This document shows, piece by piece, positions 9,739 through 20,754 of a stretch of 64,000 bases of DNA; the stretch's first letter is position 1; each line of letters begins with the position of its first letter. The stretch is from assembly GCF_001011155.1 (NCBI RefSeq), contig NZ_CP011479.1, forward strand, positions 266,501 to 330,500. The letters are read 5' to 3'. The stretch is from Hoeflea sp. IMCC20628. Its GTDB lineage: Bacteria; Pseudomonadota; Alphaproteobacteria; Rhizobiales; Rhizobiaceae. The notes under the pieces were generated by a model. It was given only the letters and a program-made list of their open reading frames with translations, ran no database searches and had not been told where the DNA came from. Made by a program: the position numbers and the translations under genes.

Positions 9739-10905
9739 TCAGTCCGTGCTGGTGCGGCGAATGGCTATCTGGGTCAAGAATGGTCCGACGATTTCAAAGG
9801 CGATGGTGCTGGCAACAGCGACGGCGAGCAGATCCTCTCCCATTTCGGGAAACCGTTCACTGGCGACCAGCGCCATGCCGATGGCGACGCCGGCCTGGGG
9901 CATCAGGCCGAGGCCGGTCATGCGGCTCTCGGCATCCGGCAGGCCTGCCAGCTTGCCTCCCAGCCATCCGCCGATCAGGCGGGCGAGAGCGCGCAGGAAG
10001 AAATAGGCAACACAGATATATCCTACTTCTGCGAGGTTGCCTGTCTTCAGGGAAGCGCCGGCCATGACGAAGAACAGCAGCATGAACGGCCATTCGATCC
10101 GTTCAATCTCATGAAACGGGCGATCATGATGGCGGGCGAAATTGATCACTGTTGCGCCGCATACCATCCCGGTGAGCAGGAAGGAAAAGCCGAAATGCAG
10201 TGCCAGTCCGGAGCACAGGAAAACCAGGCCGAGGGCTTCGATCAATGTCGGCTCGCCCGGCTTGATCCGCCCGGTCAGAAAGGCCGCAGGCAGACCGATG
10301 GCGAGCCCGAGCACAATGGCGCCGCCGACCTCGCGAGCACCATGTACCAGCGCGATCGCGGCATCCTGGTCGGTCATGATGCCGGCGAATGTCAAAGCCA
10401 TTGAAAACACCAACAGGCCCCAGGCGTCATCAATGGCGACGATGCCGAGAAGATTGGTGACAAACCTCCCCTTGGCATGGCCCTGATTGACCACATCGCG
10501 CGTGGCGGCGGGATCTGTGGCAGCGGAAAGCCCGCCCAGCAGCACCGCAATCCCGATAGGCAGGCCAATCAGCCAGAGGCCGGTCGCCACCACGGCGACG
10601 GAGACGGCGACCAGCGTCAGCGATATGATCATGATCTCGCGCCCATGGGACTTCAGGGTTTCCGGGTTCAAGGTGCCGCCCAGCAGAAAGGCAACCATGG
10701 TCAAGGCGGTGGGCGCATAAAATTCGTTGGAACCGGTAAAACTGAGCGGCAGCCAATCGAGCACTGGCGGACCAATGATTGCTCCTAAAAGGATAAGCAG
10801 CGTAACCCGGGGGACATGGACAATCCGGCCGACCTTGTCGAGCAGAAGTCCGGCCAGAAACAGAATGCCGATTGCGACAAGAACTTCAGAATTATCCACC
10901 AGCAA
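9739..10905 (-). CDS. Cation:proton antiporter (CPA superfamily)
   Basis: This 388-residue integral membrane protein has about 12 hydrophobic segments. It carries the antiporter signatures GGLSAATDPAATRDVV (ion-binding Asp in the discontinuous helix) and IVAIDDAWGLLVFSMAL with the Asp-Asp pair. These place it in the CPA Na+(K+)/H+ exchanger group. It lacks a C-terminal TrkA-N or cytosolic domain and is therefore a short, transporter-only form. A sodium exchanger beside an Nqr cluster could help keep the sodium gradient, but this is inference. No operon partner is evident. Confidence 0.88.
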   Translation of the reverse strand: MLVDNSEVLVAIGILFLAGLLLDKVGRIVHVPRVTLLILLGAIIGPPVLDWLPLSFTGSNEFYAPTALTMVAFLLGGTLNPETLKSHGREIMIISLTLVAVSVAVVATGLWLIGLPIGIAVLLGGLSAATDPAATRDVVNQGHAKGRFVTNLLGIVAIDDAWGLLVFSMALTFAGIMTDQDAAIALVHGAREVGGAIVLGLAIGLPAAFLTGRIKPGEPTLIEALGLVFLCSGLALHFGFSFLLTGMVCGATVINFARHHDRPFHEIERIEWPFMLLFFVMAGASLKTGNLAEVGYICVAYFFLRALARLIGGWLGGKLAGLPDAESRMTGLGLMPQAGVAIGMALVASERFPEMGEDLLAVAVASTIAFEIVGPFLTQIAIRRTSTD

Positions 10906-10999: not shown

Positions 11000-12085
11000 T
11001 CAAGGACGCGACATGCCTGTCATGTCGATTGTGGCCTTGGACGACAAGTCCTCGAGGCTGTCATAGGCCAGCTGAATGGCATAGCGCGGATTGTGCGCAT
11101 AGGCGCCGGGGTCCTTGGCCAGGAACTGGTAGTTGTAGGCGGCGCGCAGCAGGCGCGGCGTCCAGCTCTGGTAGCGGTTGGGATACTTGGCTTCGTCAGC
11201 GTCGGATGCGCCATTCCCGTTCAGATCATTGAAGAAATAGGGGTAGGCGTGGGAATCATAGACCACCGGCGCACCGGTCACATCTGCGGCGTAGAGAAGA
11301 ATGGCTTCGCCAAGCTTCTCGTGCAGGGTGCTGATTTCGGCGCGGATACCCTCTTTGACGTCACCGTCGCCATCAATATCTGCCGGAGTGATGCGGATGT
11401 CGCGCACGGTTTCCGCACCCTTGTGGCAGGCGACGCATTGATCAATGGCCACAACCTTGGTGGTGTGTGGATCGTGGCATGTGGTGCAGGTGTTGAAGTC
11501 AGGCACATGGACAAACCGGTCGGCGTAGGTTTTTCCCTCATACTGGTAACCGCCACGCACAGAGCCACCCATCAGGGTCGCCGCTGCCGCACGGTAGTGC
11601 ACGTTGAGAAATCCCAGATCGCCATTGACTGTATCATCCTCGCCGCCGGCGATTGCCGCGTTGACGCTGTCACTTGATTCCCGGCCCTGATGGCAGACCA
11701 TGCAGATCGCGGCAGAGCTGGTCTCTGTCGCCACTTCACCGGACGGTAAGGTGATCTGTTCAAGATCGGTCGCGGCCTGATTGTGACAGGTGACACAATC
11801 GATGGGCGATTCAATTGGTGCTGGCCCGTCGACCTTGCCTGCCATTGTGCCGTCAGCGCCGAGAAAATCCATCAGTCCGGGGCCGGAATGGCACGTGGCG
11901 CAACTTTCCGGCACGGCGCCCTCCTCGTTCCAGTGCACAAAGGATTCAGACTTTTTATCCGCGTGCGGTGAGGTGATCCATGCTTCGACAATCGAACTGA
12001 TCGGAGGGGCTTCCTGCGCTTGAGCTGTTGGAACAGCAAAAAAAGCAAGGGCGATGAGGGATGGCAATAAACGAGAATGCGACAA
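11000..12085 (-). CDS. Periplasmic pentaheme c-type cytochrome
   Basis: This 361-residue exported protein has a signal peptide (residues 1-23) and five CXXCH haem-binding motifs at about residues 62-66 (CATCH), 97-101 (CVTCH), 128-132 (CMVCH), 200-204 (CTTCH) and 217-221 (CVACH). Many free histidines (for example H51, H163, H193, H207) could serve as distal ligands. Two Asp/Asn-Gly loops (DIDGDGDVKEG and DLNGNGASDADE) resemble EF-hand calcium sites. It is transcribed away from nqrA and shares a 195-base promoter region with an FNR-like box. It is probably a periplasmic electron carrier used when oxygen is low. The partner and terminal acceptor are unknown; I do not recognise a named family beyond multihaem cytochrome c. 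Confidence 0.85.
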   Translation of the reverse strand: MSHSRLLPSLIALAFFAVPTAQAQEAPPISSIVEAWITSPHADKKSESFVHWNEEGAVPESCATCHSGPGLMDFLGADGTMAGKVDGPAPIESPIDCVTCHNQAATDLEQITLPSGEVATETSSAAICMVCHQGRESSDSVNAAIAGGEDDTVNGDLGFLNVHYRAAAATLMGGSVRGGYQYEGKTYADRFVHVPDFNTCTTCHDPHTTKVVAIDQCVACHKGAETVRDIRITPADIDGDGDVKEGIRAEISTLHEKLGEAILLYAADVTGAPVVYDSHAYPYFFNDLNGNGASDADEAKYPNRYQSWTPRLLRAAYNYQFLAKDPGAYAHNPRYAIQLAYDSLEDLSSKATIDMTGMSRP

Positions 12086-12280: not shown

Positions 12281-13555
12281 GTGGTGTTCGCAGTGTTGCC
12301 TGGTTTCCGTACCGACCAAACCGAGCCGCCGCAGCAGGTGATCCGTGACGGGCCGCCGGTTGAGCGGGTCGCCTTGCTGGGCGCCGATTGGCCGGGCCTT
12401 CGACCGAAGCTGCTTTGTGCGCAAGGCGACCGGGTCACCCTCGGCCAGCCGGTCTTTCATGATCGCGCTCACCCTGACATTGTTATTGTCGCTCCCGTTT
12501 CCGGGGTGGTCGACTCGATCACACTTGGTCCGAGGCGGAGTCTGTCGGCCTTGGTGATCCACGCGGAGCTTGGTTCGACTGATCCTGAGCCAGTGACCGT
12601 CGCTGCCTCGACCGCAGCGGACCTGCGTACATCGCTTCTTGCACATGGTCTTTGGCCGAGTTTTCTGACGCGGCCGTTCGGTCGCATCCCTGCGCCTGAT
12701 GCGACGCCGGATGCAATCTTTGTCACGGCTACCGCAGAGAACCTGCAGGCTCCTGATCCAAGAGTGGTGCTTGATGGCCGAAACGACGTGTTTCGGACCG
12801 GGCTGAAGGCTTTGGCGTTGCTGACTGCAGGGCCGGTTCATGTCTGCCAGAATAGTGGCGCCGACATTGCAGCCGGTCTCGGCGAGCGTATTCGCGGATC
12901 GTTTTTTCCGGCAGGGCAAGCGTCAGGCCTGGTCGGCAGCCATATTCACCGATTGCATCCTGTTGGTGCCCATCGGATGGTTTGGAGCATAAGCTATCAG
13001 GATGTCGCGGCCATCGGCAGCTTGATTGAAACCGGCGTCCCTGATTTCGGCCGAATCGTCTCGCTGAGCGGTCCGCGCGTCAAACATCCGTGCCTGATCC
13101 GTACCATCATCGGCGCAAGCCTGCAGGAACTGATCCGCGATGATACCTTGCCGGGGCCGGATGGTTCGGCAGTCAACGTGTTCTCCGGTTCGGCGCTGAC
13201 CGGCCGGCCTGCGGCTTGGCTAGGCCGCTACCACCAGCAAGTTACCTTGCTCAGTGACGAGCCCGAGCGCAAGGCTAAATCCGGCCCGGCTTGGCTTGCG
13301 CGGTTTCGGAAACCGGCCTCGCGCCCGGGTCCGATTGTTCCGACAGCGGCGCTCGAAAACATGCTTGGCTTTGATATTCCTGCGGTGCCGTTCCTGCGCG
13401 CTTTGAGCGTTGGCGATGCGGAGGCCGCCAGCCGTCTGGGCTGTCTGGAAATGGTGGAGGAAGATCTGGCCGCGATTTCGCTTGTTTGCACCAGCGGCGC
13501 CGATTATGGCCGAATGCTCCGTCATGTGCTTGATGAACTGGCGGAGGACGCATGA
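12281..13555 (+). CDS. nqrA: Na+-translocating NADH:quinone reductase subunit A
   Basis: This is the peripheral, cytoplasmic subunit of the six-subunit sodium-pumping NADH:quinone reductase. The 424 residues align by eye with known NqrA along the length: PVERVALLGADWPGLRP near the start, LWPSFLTRPFGRIPAPDA, the central GSHIHRLHPVGAHRMVWSIS, LIRTIIGASL, WLGRYHQQVTLL and the C-terminal ALSVGDAEAASRLGCLEMVEEDLA. The start is uncertain: GTG at 12281 follows AATAGG closely, and GTG codons at 12284 and 12293 are alternatives. The stop overlaps nqrB as ATGA. It is the first gene of the nqrABCDEF-apbE-nqrM operon. Confidence 0.9.
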   Translation: MVFAVLPGFRTDQTEPPQQVIRDGPPVERVALLGADWPGLRPKLLCAQGDRVTLGQPVFHDRAHPDIVIVAPVSGVVDSITLGPRRSLSALVIHAELGSTDPEPVTVAASTAADLRTSLLAHGLWPSFLTRPFGRIPAPDATPDAIFVTATAENLQAPDPRVVLDGRNDVFRTGLKALALLTAGPVHVCQNSGADIAAGLGERIRGSFFPAGQASGLVGSHIHRLHPVGAHRMVWSISYQDVAAIGSLIETGVPDFGRIVSLSGPRVKHPCLIRTIIGASLQELIRDDTLPGPDGSAVNVFSGSALTGRPAAWLGRYHQQVTLLSDEPERKAKSGPAWLARFRKPASRPGPIVPTAALENMLGFDIPAVPFLRALSVGDAEAASRLGCLEMVEEDLAAISLVCTSGADYGRMLRHVLDELAEDA

Positions 13556-14370
13556 CCGATTGGCTGCTTGATCCGCACCGCATGCGCCAGCATGCAGGGT
13601 GGACGCCGGCGCGGGTGACGCTCGTGCAAATGCTGGCGCTGGCTGCGCCAATTGCCGTCAAGCTGGTGGAACAAGGAACAGCAATGGCAGCGGTGCTGGT
13701 GACAGCCCTGGTGACCAGTCTTGTCTGGGACTTGGCGTTTGCCTTGATCCGCGGTCGGACACCCAGCTGGCATTCGCTGAGCACGGCGTTGATCATCACC
13801 GTGCTGATCCCCTCGACACTGCCGCTGTGGCAGGTGGCCATGGCGGCAAGTTTTGGCATGGTATTTGGCGAGCTGGTGTTCGGTGGCCGCGGCTATGGCA
13901 TCGTGCCGGCGGCAGCCGCGGCGGCGGGCTTCCTTGTGTTTTCATTTTCCGGCGCCGAGCTTTCCAGCAGCAACCAGGCCATGGCGCTGGCGACGCTGCC
14001 TGGCGCGGTCTTGTTGCTCGCCGGTGGCCTTGTTTCGTGGCGAGTTCTGGTCCCGGTTGTTGCCGTATTGGCCGTGGCCGGGTTTGCGCAGGGCGACATC
14101 AGTGGATTTTTCGAGACCTTGATCGCGGTGGCGTTTGGTATGGTGTTTCTGATTGGTGATCCGGTTGCCGCGGCATCGACAAACCTGGGTCGCTGGGTTT
14201 ACGGCGCGCTGGCCGGCTTGCTGATTGTGGTGTTTGACACCTTGGCCGGACCGGCTGTGGCGCCGGCGGCGATTGTCTTCGCCTCACTGCTGGCCAGCCT
14301 GTTTGCACCGCTGATCGATTACGCCGCAGTTGCGGTGATCCTCCGGCGGCGGAGGCAAGCGCATGGCTAA
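13552..14370 (+). CDS. nqrB: Short NqrB-like subunit lacking the covalent-FMN segment
   Basis: The gene position and several blocks identify this as NqrB: IPSTLPLWQVAMAASFGMVF with ELVFGG (about 87-112), SWRVL (162-166) and the C-terminal GDPVAAASTNLGRWVYG with SLFAPLIDY. It is 272 residues, against about 410 for typical NqrB. The N-terminal extension before the first helices is missing. Between the SFSGAE and SWRVL blocks only about 25 residues remain where Vibrio NqrB has about 80 and carries the SGAT motif whose Thr is esterified to FMN. No S/T-G-A-T motif occurs here. It is an intact frame between coupled neighbours, not a broken gene. RnfD relatives also normally keep the flavin Thr, so the loss is notable. 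Confidence 0.8.
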   Translation: MTDWLLDPHRMRQHAGWTPARVTLVQMLALAAPIAVKLVEQGTAMAAVLVTALVTSLVWDLAFALIRGRTPSWHSLSTALIITVLIPSTLPLWQVAMAASFGMVFGELVFGGRGYGIVPAAAAAAGFLVFSFSGAELSSSNQAMALATLPGAVLLLAGGLVSWRVLVPVVAVLAVAGFAQGDISGFFETLIAVAFGMVFLIGDPVAAASTNLGRWVYGALAGLLIVVFDTLAGPAVAPAAIVFASLLASLFAPLIDYAAVAVILRRRRQAHG

Positions 14371-15163
14371 ACCGTTTGCACCCATTCGCAACTTCTTTGC
14401 TCGGTCCAATGATGATCTGGTCAAGATCATCGGCATGGCGGTGCTGGTTGCGCTGGTCTCGTCCGCCGCCGTGTCTGTCACCTCTGTCATGCTCAAGCCC
14501 TATCAGGACGCCAACCGCGCCGCCGAACAGCAGGCCCGGATGGACAAGATGCTCGACACCTTGCCGGGCATGCGCGACCTGATGATGGAAACCGGAGTCG
14601 ATACGCTGGAAACCCGGCTGGTCAATCTTGATGATGGCAGTTTTGCTGATAGTGCAGATGCCGCCAGTTTCGATCTCGATGCGGCGATTCAGGACCCCGA
14701 GGCGAGCGTTGCACTCGACGCGGGTGTTGATATTGCCGCGATCAAGCGGCGCGCCAATCAATCGCCCGTCTATCTCCTGCAAAAGGACGGCGATCTCAAG
14801 CTGATCGTGCTGCCGGTCTACGGAGCAGGCTATCAATCGACCCTTCGCGCCGCGCTGGCGATCGAAGCGGATCTGGTGACGATTGCGGCGTTAGCGATTA
14901 TCGAGCAGGGCGATACGCCCGGCTTTGGCGCGCGCATTGAAGACCCGGAATGGCTGGCGCAGTGGCCCGGCAAGAAGATCGCCGATGAAACCGGCACCAT
15001 CCGCATCGAACTGGTGCGCGGTGAGGCCTCGACGCCCTACGAGGTCGATGGCATTTCCGGCGCCACCTATACCAGCAACGGGGTCACCAATCTTTTGCAT
15101 TTCTGGCTGGGAGACATGGGGTTTGGCCCGTTTCTGACCCGGCTCAGGCAGGAAGGGCTCTAG
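14363..15163 (+). CDS. nqrC: Na+-translocating NADH:quinone reductase subunit C
   Basis: NqrC is a single-helix subunit with a periplasmic FMN domain. The 266 residues contain a membrane helix (about 21-44), an aligned domain with VLPVYGAGYQSTLRAALAIE and the flavinylation motif SGATYTS at 232-238, in which T235 should carry FMN attached by ApbE. EQGDTPGFGARIEDPEW is also typical. It overlaps nqrB by 8 bases. In the usual electron path FMN on NqrC passes electrons to FMN on NqrB, which is absent in this operon. Confidence 0.92.
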   Translation: MAKPFAPIRNFFARSNDDLVKIIGMAVLVALVSSAAVSVTSVMLKPYQDANRAAEQQARMDKMLDTLPGMRDLMMETGVDTLETRLVNLDDGSFADSADAASFDLDAAIQDPEASVALDAGVDIAAIKRRANQSPVYLLQKDGDLKLIVLPVYGAGYQSTLRAALAIEADLVTIAALAIIEQGDTPGFGARIEDPEWLAQWPGKKIADETGTIRIELVRGEASTPYEVDGISGATYTSNGVTNLLHFWLGDMGFGPFLTRLRQEGL

Positions 15164-15164
15164 G

Positions 15165-15818
15165 ATGTCGCTCAAACACCATCTCACCGCCCCGCTGATC
15201 GGCAACAACCCGATCACCCTGCAGATCTTGGGCATCTGTTCAGCCCTGGCGGTGACGACCACCTTGTCGACCGCGGTGACAATGTCGGTGGCATTGACGG
15301 TGGTGCTGATGCTGTCGAACGGGACGATCAGCCTGATACGGCATCACATTCCGCCGTCGATGCGGCTGATCATCCAGATCACCATCGTGGCCTCGATTGT
15401 CATCGTCATTGATCAGTTCATGCAGGCGTTCATGTACGAAATGAGCAAGAAGCTGTCGATTTTCGTCGGTCTGATCGTCACCAATTGCCTGGTGCTTGGC
15501 CGGGCCGAAGCCTTCGCCATGCGAAACCCGGTGTTCCCGAGTGTGCTGGACGGGCTTGGTAACGGGCTGGGCTACAGCCTGATTCTGCTGATCGTCGGCG
15601 CGCTGCGCGAATTTCTGGGAACCGGTTCGCTGATGGGTGTTGCGATGGTCACCACAGTGGCGGATGGCGGCTGGTTTCAGCCGCTCGGCCTGATGCAACT
15701 GGCGCCAAGCGCCTTCTTTATCCTCGGACTGCTGGTCTGGCTGGTGCGGGTGCTGCGTCCCGAACAGGGGGAACAGCCTGAATTCCGGTTGCAAGCACCG
15801 GAGGATGGCCGGTCATGA
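15165..15818 (+). CDS. nqrD: Na+-translocating NADH:quinone reductase subunit D
   Basis: This 217-residue membrane protein has about six helices. It forms, with NqrE, the intramembrane pair that holds an iron-sulfur centre. Both ligand cysteines are present: C25 in [10 protein letters not shown] and C108 in [18 protein letters not shown]. The start ATG follows the nqrC stop by one base, and the stop overlaps nqrE as ATGA. Length and hydrophobic pattern fit the family. Confidence 0.93.
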
Positions 15819-16414
15819 TCGAACTGCTGATTAAATCCATTTTTCAGGAAAATCTGGCGCTCTCCTTCTTCCTTGGCATGTGCACCTTTCTGGCTGTGTC
15901 CAAACGGGTCGACACCGCGCTCGGTCTCGGGCTGGCGGTCATCGTGGTGCAGGCGATCACGGTTCCGGTCAATTATCTGATCTTCAATCTGCTGCTGCTC
16001 GAAGGCGCTTGGGCCTGGGCCGGATTGCCGGACGTGGATCTGACCTTCCTCAAGCTCGTCAGTTTCATCGGCGTGATTGCGGCCATGGTGCAGATCCTCG
16101 AAATGATCCTCGACCGCTTCGCGCCGCGGCTCTACCGGGCCCTCGGAATCTTCCTGCCGCTGATCACTGTCAATTGCGCCATTCTCGGCGGCAGCCTGTT
16201 CATGGTCGAGCGGCAGTATGATTTTGCAGAGTCGGTCACTTACGGGATCGGCAGCGGTGTCGGCTGGGCGCTGGCGATTGTCACCTTCGCCGCCATTCGC
16301 GAACGGCTGAAATACAGCGACATGCCCAAAGGGGTCGAGGGGCTCGCCAGCGCCTTTATCGTCACCGGGCTGATGTCACTCGGGTTCTCGGCCTTCTCCC
16401 TGGTGACGCCATGA
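15815..16414 (+). CDS. nqrE: Na+-translocating NADH:quinone reductase subunit E
   Basis: This 199-residue, six-helix partner of NqrD has the conserved cysteines C23 ([15 protein letters not shown]) and C121 ([15 protein letters not shown]) that ligate the intramembrane iron-sulfur cluster. [20 protein letters not shown] near the C-terminus is also typical. It is coupled by ATGA overlaps to nqrD upstream and nqrF downstream, so subunits are probably made together. Confidence 0.94.
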
Positions 16415-17631
16415 CCGAGATTGTTCTGGGCATTGGTCTGCTGACTGCGATCGTCCTTGTGCTGGCGATCACGGTGATGGGGGCGCGGTCGATCCTGTCG
16501 CCGTCGCGGCCTGCATCCTTGACCGTCAACGGGTCGAGCAAATTCGACACCCGCACCGGGGTCAAGCTGCTGGCTGCCCTGAATGACAACGGCATTCTGG
16601 TGCCGTCGGCCTGTGCCGGTGCTGGTACCTGCGGATTGTGCCGGGTCAAGATCCTCAAGGGTGGCGCAGCGCCCTTGCCGACGGAAGCTGCGCGGCTGAC
16701 CAAGGCTGACCTGCGGGATCAGGTTCATCTCGCCTGTCAGGTGGTTTTGCGCGGCGACATGGAAGTCGAGGTCGACAATGACCTGATGTCGGCGGAAAAT
16801 TTCACCTGCACGGTCGAAAGCGTGAGAGCGCTGACACCGCTGATCCGCGAGATCGTGTTGCACCAGCCCGATGGCATGAAAGCCGCTATCGAAGCCGGGT
16901 CCTTCGTGCAGATCACTGCACCAGCTTTTAAGCTTGGCTTCGCCGATATCGAGGTTCCGCAAGAACATGCGGCTGTCTGGCAGAATTTGCTGAGGCTTGA
17001 GGTGTCATCGGCCGATCCGGTGACGCGGGCCTATTCCGTATCCAACCGGCCTGAAGACACAGACGCGGGGCGTATCGTACTCAATATCCGGCTGGCGCTG
17101 CCGCCGCCGTCGGTGCCCGAAGCGATGCCGGGGGTAGTCTCGTCCTGGCTGTTTTCACTGAAGCCCGGCGATCAGGTCGATACATCCGGACCGTTCGGCA
17201 GTTTTCGCGCTCAGCCCGGTGAGGCCGAGATGGTGTTCATTGGCGGCGGCGTCGGCATGGCGCCGCTGCGGGCTATCATTTTCGATCAACTCGAGCGGTT
17301 GGGCTCCAAACGCCGTATCAGCTATTGGTATGGCGCGCGCAACAAGTCGGATCTGCCCTATCAGGACGAGTTCGCTGCCCTGGCGGCCAGGCATCCGAAT
17401 TTTGACTGGACCGTGGCCCTGTCGGATCCGCGTCCCGAAGATGATTGGCAGGGTGCCACCGGGTTTGTGCATATGGTGGCCTGGGAGAATTACTTGCGGG
17501 ATCACCCGGCGCCGGAGGCTTGCGAGTATTATCTCTGCGGTCCGCCGATGATGATCCGCGCTGTGTCGGCGATGCTGGACGATGCCGGCGTCGATAAATC
17601 CCATATCTTCTCAGATGATTTCGGAGTCTGA
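16411..17631 (+). CDS. nqrF: Na+-translocating NADH:quinone reductase subunit F (NADH-oxidising)
   Basis: NqrF takes electrons from NADH. The 406 residues contain an N-terminal membrane helix (4-24), a plant-type ferredoxin domain with ligands C68, C74, C77 and C109, a flavin-binding block with RAYSVSN and an NADH-binding block with [25 protein letters not shown] and the terminal DDFGV match ferredoxin reductase-type NqrF. All redox centres appear intact. The stop is three bases before apbE. Confidence 0.95.
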
Positions 17632-17634
17632 TCC

Positions 17635-18600
17635 ATGAAGATGACGCGACGCAATTTTCTCGTCACAACCGCAGGCGCAATGGCCTGGGGCATGCGCCCG
17701 GCGATGGCTGGCACCATTGGCATCGGTGGACCGGCGTTTGGCAGCACTTGGCGTGCGGCTTTGCCGGACGCAGACAAGTCCGGTGCGGTGCGCAAGCTGG
17801 TGACTTCAGTTGTCGCTGAAATCAATCAGGCGATGTCGCCATATCTCGCCAAATCGGAACTCTCCCAGTTCAACCGCACCGATACACTGGATTGGCAAAA
17901 CTGTTCCGCGCCGCTTGCCACTGTCGCAGACCATGCGCTGGAGATGTCAAAATTCACGCAAGGCGCCTTCGATCCGACTATTGGTCCGTTGGTCAATCGT
18001 TTCGGTTTCGGGCCTATCCACGGAGGACGGGCGCGTCCGCAAGATCTGTCGGTCTCAGCCGAGGCCTTGCGCAAGGCGGCGCCGGGTCTGACGCTTGATC
18101 TCTGCGGCATTGCCAAGGGCTACGCGCTGGACCGGATTATTGACAGCCTGCCATCTGTCGGCGTGGACACCGCTTTGTTCGAGCTTGGTGGCGAGGTGCG
18201 CACGCTGGGGCGTCATCCGGACGCAAGGCCGTGGCAGGTCGGCATCGAGCGGCCGGACGCAGCGCCGGGCCTCATGGCGCATATTGTTGCTCCCGGTCCG
18301 ATGGCGCTGGCAACGTCGGGAACCGGATGGCAAAACGTCAGGCTGGAGCAGGGCGGCATCAGCCATCTGATTGACCCGCGCACCAGCCGACCGGTTGATG
18401 CCATGCCGGCGTCGGTGTCTGTTCTGGCAGACACCGCGATGCGCGCCGACGGTCTGGCCACGGCACTGATGGTGATGGGAATGGAGCGGGGTGCGGCCTT
18501 TGCCGAGACCCATTTGATTCCAGCGCTGTTTGTGCGGCTCGACAATGGCGGCAGCCATGAGATCATGACTGGCGGTTTCGAAGACTACGTCAGCGCATAG
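17635..18600 (+). CDS. apbE: FAD:protein FMN transferase (ApbE)
   Basis: ApbE transfers FMN from FAD to the threonine of S/T-G-A-T motifs in the periplasm. This 321-residue protein has a twin-arginine signal (TRRNFLVTTAGAMAWG), followed by FGSTW, the DPTIGPLVNRFGFG block, LTLDLCGIAKGYALDRI, ATSGTGW and LIDPRTSRPV, and the metal-binding ADTAMRADGLATALMVMG. In this operon its obvious substrate is NqrC T235; NqrB has no matching motif. The gene lies just after nqrF and before nqrM. Confidence 0.93.
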   Translation: MKMTRRNFLVTTAGAMAWGMRPAMAGTIGIGGPAFGSTWRAALPDADKSGAVRKLVTSVVAEINQAMSPYLAKSELSQFNRTDTLDWQNCSAPLATVADHALEMSKFTQGAFDPTIGPLVNRFGFGPIHGGRARPQDLSVSAEALRKAAPGLTLDLCGIAKGYALDRIIDSLPSVGVDTALFELGGEVRTLGRHPDARPWQVGIERPDAAPGLMAHIVAPGPMALATSGTGWQNVRLEQGGISHLIDPRTSRPVDAMPASVSVLADTAMRADGLATALMVMGMERGAAFAETHLIPALFVRLDNGGSHEIMTGGFEDYVSA

Positions 18601-18612
18601 GAGGAACAGACG

Positions 18613-18774
18613 ATGGAGACATTTCTGCTCGCATTTGGACTGGTGCTTCTGTCCGTGCTCGGATTGGCGCTCGGAGTGATTTTCGGACGGGCGCCGCTGA
18701 AGGGCTCCTGTGGCGGACTGGCCTGTGCCACCGGATTGTCCTGCAGCGGTTGCCGCAAGGGCGGCAAACCATGA
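18613..18774 (+). CDS. nqrM: Nqr assembly factor NqrM (ApbE-associated small Cys-rich protein)
   Basis: This 53-residue protein has one membrane helix (3-24) followed by GRAPLKGSCGGLAC and a tail with five cysteines in total (C33, C38, C44, C47 among them). NqrM is needed for maturation of the Nqr complex, probably by delivering iron to the NqrD/E cluster. A strong ribosome site (AGGAGGA) precedes the ATG at 18613. The stop overlaps the CBS gene as ATGA. It is too short for many gene finders. Confidence 0.9.
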   Translation: METFLLAFGLVLLSVLGLALGVIFGRAPLKGSCGGLACATGLSCSGCRKGGKP

Positions 18775-19169
18775 GCACGCGCCCGCAAATAAAGACCTAT
18801 ATGAGCCGTGAACTGGTTACGCTGACGCCCGATATGGAAATAAACCGGGCGATGAACCTTCTCATCGACAATCACATTTCCGGGGCGCCGGTGCTCAATG
18901 AGTCCGGAAATCTGGTGGGAATGCTGTCGCAGAAAGACTGCCTCAAGGCAGCACTGCATGCGAGCTATTACAGGGAATGGGGCGATACCGTCGCCAAATA
19001 CATGTCCGGTAACGTCCAGACGCTTGATGCAGACCTCGATCTCGTCGAAGCGGCGGAAGCCTTTCTGGCAAGTTCTTTCCGGCGCTTTCCGGTGATGTCG
19101 GAAGGCCGCCTGGTCGGCCAGATCAGCCGCTCGGATCTGCTCAAGGCTTTGGCCGGCAACTGGCAATAA
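18771..19169 (+). CDS. Tandem CBS-domain protein at the end of the nqr operon
   Basis: This 132-residue soluble protein consists almost only of a CBS pair: first domain about 8-62 (KTYMSRELVTLTPDMEINRA, with ISGAPVLNESGNLVGMLSQKD) and second domain about 72-128 (VAKYMSGNVQTLDADLDLVE, with FPVMSEGRLVGQISRSDLL). CBS pairs commonly sense adenine nucleotides or NAD(P). ATG 18771 overlaps the nqrM stop, so it is translated with the Nqr genes; this suggests a link between energy charge and Nqr, but no mechanism is shown. Its stop abuts the convergent ackA stop. Confidence 0.88.
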   Translation: MSTRPQIKTYMSRELVTLTPDMEINRAMNLLIDNHISGAPVLNESGNLVGMLSQKDCLKAALHASYYREWGDTVAKYMSGNVQTLDADLDLVEAAEAFLASSFRRFPVMSEGRLVGQISRSDLLKALAGNWQ

Positions 19170-20330
19170 TCAGTCGATCAGGCAGGCAACGGCGCGAGCG
19201 ATGACACCTTCCTCGTCGGCCTCGACGATATAGGCATGCCGGGCACTGTCAGCCGTCGTCAGCCGTTCGGCGCCGGCCGCATTGGCGTCGGCATCAAGCC
19301 TGAATCCGAGCCATTCCAGCTTTTGCATGGCCATGCTTCTGATTGGCGCTGCATTTTCGCCGACACCGCCGGAAAAGACCAGCGCATCGACGCCGCCAAG
19401 GCTCGCAGCCGCCGCGCCGATTTCCTGCACCAGCCGGTCGACATACATGTCGATGGCAAAGGCGGCATCGGGCTCATTGCTGGCCAGCAGCGTGCGCATG
19501 TCGCCCGACAGGCCGGAGACGCCTGACAGGCCGCTCTGGTGATAGAGCAGCTTGTTCACGGCGGCGATGTCGCCGCCATGGCGTTCCACCAGCCAGAGCA
19601 CGGCGCCGGGATCGAGCCGTCCCGGACGTTGTCCCATCATCAGCCCGTCGAGCGGGGTGTAGCCCATCGATGTCCAGCTACTCTTTCCGTCCGTGAGGCC
19701 GCAGACCGAGCAGCCATTGCCGAGATGGCAGGCAATCACCCGGCTGCCGGAAACGCCCAAGGCCGGCAACCGGGCCGCGATATGTTCATAGGAAATGCCA
19801 TGAAAGCCGTAGCGGATAAGCCCTTCGCGCGCATAGCTGCGGGGCAGGGGCATCTCGCGCCGCACGGTTGGAACGCCGGCATGAAAGGCAGTGTCGAAAC
19901 AGGCGATTTGGGCAACACCGGGCAAGGCCAGCGTGGCAGCGTCTATCCCTGCCAGATTGTGCGGCTGATGGCCGGGCGCCAAGGGAGTCAGTTCGGCGAT
20001 ACCGGCGCGGATTTCCGGATCTATTCTGACCGGAGCGTTGAACCTCTCGCCGCCATGGACAATGCGATGGCCGACGCCGGAAATTGTTCCCGCGCGGGGC
20101 AGAATGATGTCATGGATCAGTCGCGGCAGTACGTCGGCATGGGTCTGATCGGAATCGCCAAACTCCTGTACGTCTCCTGCGGATGTTTTCAATCTCGGGT
20201 TCTGGCCGTGTCCGATGGCTTCAACCAGTCCGGAGAAGCTGCGCTCGAACTCTGGAGTAAACAACGCGAACTTGATCGAGGATGAGCCGCAATTGAGCGC
20301 CAACAGGCTTTCATGGGAACCGTGGCTCAT
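19170..20330 (-). CDS. ackA: Acetate kinase
   Basis: Acetate kinase converts acetyl phosphate and ADP to acetate and ATP. The 386 residues carry the ASKHA signatures LALNCGSSSIKFALF near the start, GVGHRIVHGGERF, CFDTAFH, GYTPLDGLMMGQRPGRLDPG and FSGGVGENAAPIRSM. I chose ATG 20330 because AAGGAC lies about eight bases upstream and homology begins there; a longer frame from 20441 has no family content. No phosphotransacetylase follows, so the acetyl phosphate source must be elsewhere. A perfect FNR/FixK box lies 332 bases upstream of the start, which is compatible with a low-oxygen role. Confidence 0.93.
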   Translation of the reverse strand: MSHGSHESLLALNCGSSSIKFALFTPEFERSFSGLVEAIGHGQNPRLKTSAGDVQEFGDSDQTHADVLPRLIHDIILPRAGTISGVGHRIVHGGERFNAPVRIDPEIRAGIAELTPLAPGHQPHNLAGIDAATLALPGVAQIACFDTAFHAGVPTVRREMPLPRSYAREGLIRYGFHGISYEHIAARLPALGVSGSRVIACHLGNGCSVCGLTDGKSSWTSMGYTPLDGLMMGQRPGRLDPGAVLWLVERHGGDIAAVNKLLYHQSGLSGVSGLSGDMRTLLASNEPDAAFAIDMYVDRLVQEIGAAAASLGGVDALVFSGGVGENAAPIRSMAMQKLEWLGFRLDADANAAGAERLTTADSARHAYIVEADEEGVIARAVACLID

Positions 20331-20754
20331 CTTGGTTGTGTCCTTTCCGTGCTGCGTGTCCGTATATACGCCAAAAGCAGTGGCCTTAACTGTAGATCCG
20401 TTGTGCCGGATTGGAAGAATTGTGCAACCCAAATCCGGCACTGGACTGGTCTAAACCGCGCAATTGGCGTGATTGGGTGGTCAGCCGGGATGGTCGCAAT
20501 CGGAATGGCGCGGTGAACGGAACTGGCCGGCAATGCCTGCGGTTCCTTTCCAAGAGCGGTCGCTGATTTTGTAGCTGTGGCTCAAGCGAAAGCCTTTCTC
20601 AACCCAAAAGTATTGTGGTGAAGCGCACCACATGGGCCACCTGTCCCTAAACATATAAACATTGATATGAATCAATGTGGAATCTTGGGCTGATCCCTAG
20701 TCTCTCCTAGATAACAGGGAGCGGTAAAGGCGCATATGCCTGCACCGGTGGAGC
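20331..20754. other. 424-bp intergenic region with an FNR box, otherwise non-coding
   Basis: This stretch separates divergent ackA and a membrane-protein gene. Apart from the FNR-type palindrome at 20660-20677 and an AT-rich ACATATAAAC just before it, I see no credible gene. Short open frames here (20313-20516 plus, 20481-20675 minus) have no domain and lack ribosome sites. The long gap on the ackA side could hold a leader transcript. Confidence 0.5.
20660..20677. promoter_or_regulatory. Perfect FNR/FixK box (18-bp palindrome)
   Basis: CATTGATATGAATCAATG contains TTGAT-N4-ATCAA exactly (20662-20675) and is palindromic over 18 bases. It sits between ackA and the gene at 20755. No clear -10 is found at the class II distance on either strand; TATATG at 20658-20653 on the minus strand is so close that binding might instead repress. 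Confidence 0.75.

Follow-up and report, generated by a model that had tools for sequence, protein, structure and literature searches.

We uncovered, in a 64,000-nucleotide stretch of the Hoeflea sp. IMCC20628 genome (NZ_CP011479.1, positions 266,501 to 330,500; the window), a single operon that codes for all six subunits, NqrA to NqrF, of a Na+-translocating NADH:quinone oxidoreductase (Na+-NQR), but whose NqrB is a short form shorn of the loop that bears the covalent flavin mononucleotide (FMN). Comparison with its relatives suggests that the product is probably a Na+-NQR derivative deployed at low oxygen as an ion-pumping NADH:periplasmic cytochrome c oxidoreductase, with an electron path that ends at the FMN of NqrC. 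A stronger version, which we advance tentatively and with a little less than even confidence, is that it represents a distinct respiratory enzyme: a Na+-NQR minus the quinone branch, which would oxidize NADH at the expense of a periplasmic multiheme cytochrome and pump Na+ via NqrD and NqrE with no flavin in NqrB.

The first-pass annotation had described an intact 272-residue nqrB that is translationally coupled to its neighbors and keeps the conserved sequence blocks without the SGAT motif, and inspection of the reading frame and its sequence bears this out. The frame is open throughout, its ATG overlaps the stop codon of nqrA (ATGA, 13552-13555) and its 3′ end overlaps the start of nqrC at 14363; the PLWQ, FGG, SWR and DPV blocks are all retained, and no [ST]GAT motif was found in the 272 residues. 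The match to the PF03116 profile falls into two halves, with profile positions 133-170 absent, and the score against the NCBIfam nqrB model is 109 bits (cut-off 349.9). A fold model of the short protein (mean predicted local distance difference test score, pLDDT, 80) has NqrB and RnfD as its top structural matches, with query-normalized template-modelling scores of 0.71 for 7xk3_B and 0.79 for 9eri_D, and close orthologs come from Hoeflea sp. BRH_c9 (L003, 79%) and H. alexandrii DSM 16655 (L004, 68%). The first-pass annotation had also raised two trivial explanations, namely a full-length nqrB elsewhere in the genome or an assembly error. We reject both, leaving them a negligible probability: no other PF03116 gene was detected (E<=0.001) in the 5.1-Mb genome, which is 99.99% complete, and the identical deletion is shared by 10 of 18 Hoeflea genomes and by all 43 loci collected.

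These 43 short NqrBs, the window protein included, were compared with 45 longer ones (among them L070, 312 residues, which may be an RnfD), with residues numbered after Vibrio cholerae NqrB. As had been proposed from the sequence, a residue-by-residue alignment with the V. cholerae protein finds the Thr236 loop absent, and the further short NqrBs that we sought lack it in every case: Thr236 is present in 0/43 short versus 45/45 longer NqrBs. Arg209 (0/43 versus 43/45) and Thr345 (3/43 versus 45/45) follow the same pattern. The Hoeflea NqrBs carry SGAE-, SGAQ- or SGAG-like letters at the deletion junction, where gap placement is alignment-dependent and two alignments disagree; these are perhaps a relic of SGAT. 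Across the 43 short proteins no [STAP]GA[ST] match with a Thr occurs at the junction. Four candidates for a displaced FMN motif were rejected: in L148 and L178 an SGAT lies outside the loop, at about V. cholerae position 353, immediately following the DPV/DPA block; that of L192, a frame-broken draft, belongs to NqrC; and in L084 a TGAS lies at the junction without the Asp that usually precedes the covalent-FMN motif, making flavinylation of its Ser possible but unlikely. Conversely, four proteins lack [ST]GAT yet keep the loop and its Thr, namely L019 and L167 (TSAT), L060 (SGPT) and L196 (AGAT); scans for the motif alone hence proved misleading.

The losses go beyond the FMN loop that was first observed, extending to the N-terminal helices of the quinone site, the riboflavin-contacting Asn residues of the window protein and part of NqrA. 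The quinone site of Na+-NQR is reported to comprise two N-terminal amphipathic helices, L138, G141, F159 and one backbone contact (PMC10643135, PMC12174285). The window NqrB has 84 residues fewer before its Trp59 than V. cholerae NqrB has before the matching Trp143, so that these helices are gone, and neither they nor F159 is found in it; Phe159 is replaced by Ser in the window protein and is retained in 0/43 short versus 37/45 longer NqrBs. The side chains reported to contact riboflavin in NqrB are T162, N200, N203 and D346 (PMC9325719), which correspond to T, G, P and D in the window NqrB, G116 and P119 standing in for the two Asn. More generally, Asn200 persists in 18/43 and Asn203 in 14/43 short NqrBs, versus 45/45 of the longer ones at both positions. 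On the NqrA side, residues 330-379 of the V. cholerae protein have been described as intertwining with NqrB residues 34-53 (PMC9325719); the corresponding arm measures only 43-58 residues in the 22/22 short-operon NqrAs aligned, versus 76-78 residues in 12/13 longer-NqrB operons and 70 in L160. The loss of two parts that contact each other argues for a short complex that co-evolved, rather than one that decayed at random.

In contrast to these losses, the remainder of the complex is kept. The claims that NqrC keeps its flavin motif and that NqrD, NqrE and NqrF keep their metal ligands were upheld: the window NqrC contains DGISGATYTS, the cluster cysteines align with those of V. cholerae and the four ferredoxin cysteines of NqrF are conserved. 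Across the short operons the NqrC motif (with Thr as the flavin-bearing residue in 21 and Ser in 3) and the cysteines that ligate the clusters in NqrD, NqrE and NqrF are retained in 24/24, as are R67 and E115 of NqrD and E96 of NqrE, which align with RnfE R67/E115 and RnfA E88, residues implicated in Na+ binding in Rnf (PMC11889175). Within NqrB itself D397 is present in 43/43 and F342 in 32/43 short proteins. The window operon also has a complete maturation set in ApbE and an NqrM-like protein; the gene for the latter sits between apbE and a CBS-domain gene and is below the usual length limits for open reading frames. NqrA and NqrB score below their NCBI equivalog cut-offs, and NqrC is above that of TIGR01938 only.

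These patterns bear on the notion of a dead or dying complex with nqrB as a relic, to which we assign a very low probability. NqrA and NqrB are, as that notion would predict, the least conserved of the six subunits in most Hoeflea comparisons; however, the open frame and the operon have been maintained across 40 operons of one clade, D397 and the NqrC to NqrF ligands are invariant, and NqrA has been shortened to match. Since the ligands are intact and the pathway in V. cholerae is known, we instead propose that NADH reduces the flavin adenine dinucleotide (FAD) and then the 2Fe-2S cluster of NqrF, from which electrons would pass to the 2Fe-2S cluster between NqrD and NqrE and on to the covalent FMN of NqrC. 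NqrB would then probably be a flavin-poor scaffold, as the covalent-FMN loop, the quinone helices and, here, the riboflavin Asn are lost, whereas Na+ export probably persists at NqrD/E, where the Na+-pair residues are invariant. The FMN of NqrC would in turn reduce a soluble carrier in the periplasm, in most cases the adjoining pentaheme cytochrome, providing an electron sink independent of quinone. The genome also encodes complex I (NuoH family), so the operon need not supply an NADH:quinone route.

The gene neighborhoods point to the likely acceptor. A gene for a pentaheme c-type cytochrome adjoins 31/42 short operons versus 0/17 longer-NqrB operons; it is divergent in 28 of the 31, upstream on the same strand in L143 and L192, and downstream in L186. 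The cytochrome and promoter counts exclude L084, which lies at the end of a contig, and the cytochrome alignment excludes L192. No open reading frame with at least four CXXCH motifs occurs in the stretches of 67 further loci (L005-L071), and no pentaheme cytochrome was found in the genome of the longer-NqrB locus L167. In 30/30 aligned cytochromes the five CXXCH motifs are accompanied by five further invariant His residues (H41, H163, H193, H207, H331), from which we infer five bis-His hemes and hence a role as an electron carrier. In NQR-free Hoeflea, 4/7 loci of this cytochrome (L169-L172) are divergent from a transmembrane protein that combines Ferric_reduct, FAD and NAD domains, potentially another conduit for electrons from NAD(P)H to the outside, as if the one replaces the other; the family scan of neighboring genes covered L169-L172 and, among L173-L175, one nine-heme open reading frame in L174. 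The latter (L174:7503-9389) codes for a nine-CXXCH cytochrome with Cytochrome_cB and MtrC/F-like domains beside a second type of pentaheme cytochrome. L142 has no pentaheme gene; it adjoins genes for a small cytochrome with four hemes and for a flavoprotein of the FAD_binding_2 family whose start is twin-arginine-like. This c3-type tetraheme cytochrome and flavoprotein (L142:5859-7764) resemble periplasmic reductases of the fumarate or methacrylate type.

The promoter region of the short operons is likewise distinctive. FNR and FixK recognize the consensus TTGAT-N4-ATCAA, and a box with at most one mismatch to it was recovered upstream of 15/24 short operons versus 0.16 expected from shuffles that preserve base composition only. 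A second batch, examined afterwards, yielded 11/18 versus 0.05 expected, for a combined 26/42 short versus 3/77 longer-NqrB operons (1/13, 1/61 and 1/3 in the separate control sets). The promoter stretches of the first batch span 260-601 bases, with lengths varying between batches; at L143, where the cytochrome gene comes before nqrA, the stretch is the one in front of that gene. The box suggests that low oxygen probably induces the operon through a regulator of the FNR/FixK type.

Both lines of evidence also speak to the direction of electron flow. It is conceivable, albeit improbable, that a periplasmic donor reduces the pentaheme cytochrome and that the Na+ gradient drives electrons via NqrC, NqrD/E and NqrF to NAD+. 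The anatomy of the complex gives preference to neither direction, Rnf relatives are reported to operate both ways (PMC12174285, PMC11889175) and a gene for a Na+/H+ exchanger lies nearby. However, the FNR-like boxes suggest a low-oxygen electron sink, the NQR-free Hoeflea pair the cytochrome with a protein of an NAD(P)H-oxidizing type, L142 adjoins a reductase-like flavoprotein, and no donor enzyme was identified.

Several observations weigh against the proposal that electrons leave at NqrC for the cytochrome. The statistical association of the short operons with the cytochrome (Fisher 8e-8) and the figures from the promoter shuffles are overstated, since related genomes are non-independent and neighbors were examined for only 17 longer operons. 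The pentaheme neighbor is missing at 11/42 short operons, and in the nine of these genomes that were searched none was found elsewhere (the genome-wide cytochrome search left out L194-L196). Conversely, the cytochrome occurs in 5/8 Hoeflea genomes that have no NQR, so that it is not an NQR-specific subunit. A fold model of the cytochrome, built with three sequences, gave no usable fold (pLDDT 37). With respect to NqrB, Gly141 is a poor discriminator (8/43 short versus only 31/45 longer proteins), F338 is kept in only 21/43 short NqrBs, including all 10 Hoeflea rows, and the riboflavin site is not uniformly eroded: both Asn are retained in 10/43 and D346 in 39/43, and the window protein itself retains T162 and D346. 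Riboflavin may thus remain in some short NqrBs, and we rejected loss of its site as a general trait of the group.

The retained D346 and Asn residues and the missing pentaheme neighbors are also the mainstay of the main rival, in which the complex has remained an NADH:quinone oxidoreductase: the mobile FMN of NqrC would directly reduce a non-covalent flavin in NqrB, and this flavin a quinone bound at a changed site, with the cytochrome being an unrelated neighbor or a side branch. A published model of a two-subunit relative offers a precedent, in that its membrane domain has no flavinylation site and the covalent flavin of the partner lies near a non-covalent flavin site (PMC11334425). This alternative is weakest for the window protein, which has neither riboflavin Asn nor the quinone-site helices, and strongest for the 10/43 that keep both Asn. 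The cytochrome linkage of the short operons and the service of quinone by complex I further count against it, and overall we consider it unlikely, though less so than electron flow toward NAD+. Of the two readings offered in the first-pass annotation, one in which the complex bypasses the flavin of NqrB and one in which it is distinct and rewired, perhaps passing electrons to the pentaheme cytochrome, the comparative evidence favors the second, given the single short clade, the pentaheme linkage, the loss of quinone and riboflavin residues here and the intact path up to NqrC.

The short form recurs in 10/18 Hoeflea genomes, and no full-length NqrB was found in any of the 18 (G007 has an additional match below the cut-off, covering 29 positions). 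Searches at the level of the family matched 21/297 genomes (15 short and 6 full-length NqrBs), of the order 43/297 (12 short NqrBs besides that of the window; 12 short and 2 longer loci were taken), of the class 15/385 (3 short, 8 full-length, 4 weak) and of the phylum at least 214/398, from which four loci were taken (3 short, 1 longer). More short NqrBs come from plasmids of Nitratireductor sp. OM-1, Shinella sp. HZN7 (L177) and Paracoccus aminophilus. L168, with no NqrB by blast, and the weak matches G311, G285 and G064 were left unclassified, and L146 and L147 are nearly identical. In a tree of joined NqrD, NqrE and NqrF, from which L084, L178 and L192 are left out, all 40 short operons that could be used group in a single clade (ultrafast bootstrap, UFBoot, 98), neighbored by the longer-NqrB operons L160 and L196 (together UFBoot 100). 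The NqrB of L160 (371 residues) keeps SGAT and starts near the HIRD block, and so seems to be without the N-terminal quinone helices; it is a possible intermediate, which suggests, from one or two sequences, that the quinone site was lost first and the FMN loop later. The two deepest-branching short operons, L140 and L153, have no nqrA within the stretch examined. In L176, L177 and L178 the short NqrB is annotated at NCBI as "RnfABCDGE type electron transport complex subunit D", despite lying within an nqr operon. L178, on the P. aminophilus plasmid pAMI8, has genes for a recombinase and a Tn3-family transposase after nqrC, replacing nqrD-F, and lies near genes for cytochrome bd, a truncated hemoglobin and a universal stress protein.

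Table 1. Features of the short-NqrB operon and its surroundings (positions in the window; aa, amino acids).
Feature	Position	Strand	Remark
Na+/H+ exchanger family protein	9739..10905	-	adjoins cytochrome gene in Hoeflea
pentaheme c-type cytochrome	11000..12085	-	Sec-like signal, divergent from nqrA; proposed acceptor of NqrC electrons
FNR/FixK-like box TTGATATAGCTCAA	12181..12194	.	between the divergent cytochrome and nqrA genes
nqrA, 424 aa from putative GTG start	12281..13555	+	NqrB-contacting arm shortened
nqrB short form, 272 aa	13552..14370	+	scaffold without FMN loop and N-terminal quinone helices
nqrB deletion junction	13945..13971	+	residues 132-140, about V. cholerae 214-273; SGAT-FMN loop gone
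nqrC	14363..15163	+	covalent FMN motif DGISGATYTS retained
nqrD	15165..15818	+	cluster cysteines and Na+-pair residues R67/E115 retained
nqrE	15815..16414	+	cluster cysteines and E96 retained
nqrF	16411..17631	+	FAD/NAD and 2Fe-2S domains
apbE, FAD:protein FMN transferase	17635..18600	+	
nqrM-like, 53 aa, Cys-rich	18613..18774	+	PF04400 21.1 bits, just below the 22-bit cut-off
CBS-domain protein, 133 aa from putative ATG start at 18771	18771..19169	+	conserved with operon

At the borders of the operon (Table 1), the Na+/H+ exchanger is possibly part of a Na+ circuit. At the other end, an acetate kinase gene (19170-20441) is convergent with the cluster and is present in 7/9 other Hoeflea stretches compared.

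When compared with known systems, the complex shares with the Na+-NQR of V. cholerae the six subunits in order, the ligands of NqrF, NqrD/E and NqrC, ApbE, NqrM, and D397 and D346 of NqrB, and differs from it in the window NqrB, without the Thr236-FMN loop, quinone helices and riboflavin Asn, and in the shorter arm of NqrA. The two-subunit Nqr/Rnf-like complexes, as modelled in PMC11334425, similarly set an NqrB/RnfD-type domain without a flavinylation site beside a flavinylated NqrC/RnfG-type subunit, with electrons proposed to flow from NAD(P)H to the outside. There, however, a NAD-binding domain forms a fusion with the membrane domain and no more than two subunits are apparent (PMC11334425), whereas the window NqrB matches PF03116 only, with no such fusion, and all six NQR subunits are present, so that ion pumping could remain. 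A pump encoded with an outside-facing multiheme cytochrome c is also described for the Rnf systems with MmcA of Methanosarcina (PMC11024163) and DhcA of Desulfovibrio (PMC4841214), but those cytochromes are heptaheme and decaheme, and the pump is a ferredoxin-linked Rnf rather than an NQR. Indeed, in place of the ferredoxin-type RnfB and the cofactor-bearing RnfC that mark an Rnf, the window has NqrF and NqrA. In the open-access literature, to which our search was confined (subscription papers being outside it), we found no six-subunit NQR with a short NqrB or with the flavin branch of NqrB removed, and current names (NqrB, or "RnfD" at NCBI) hide such complexes. If our proposal is right, these systems would provide an energy-conserving route from NADH to a periplasmic acceptor without quinone. 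They would also be a naturally occurring separation-of-function case for the site of pumping in Na+-NQR, a matter on which two published models conflict: in one, Na+ crosses in NqrB, opened upon reduction of the NqrB FMN (Hau 2023, PMC10643135), and in the other it crosses in RnfA/E, with RnfD serving electron transfer only (Kumar 2025, PMC11889175). Na+ transport in the short clade would bear directly on both and could discriminate between them, because the clade has dispensed with the FMN of NqrB yet retains the pair residues of NqrD/E and an NqrB scaffold.

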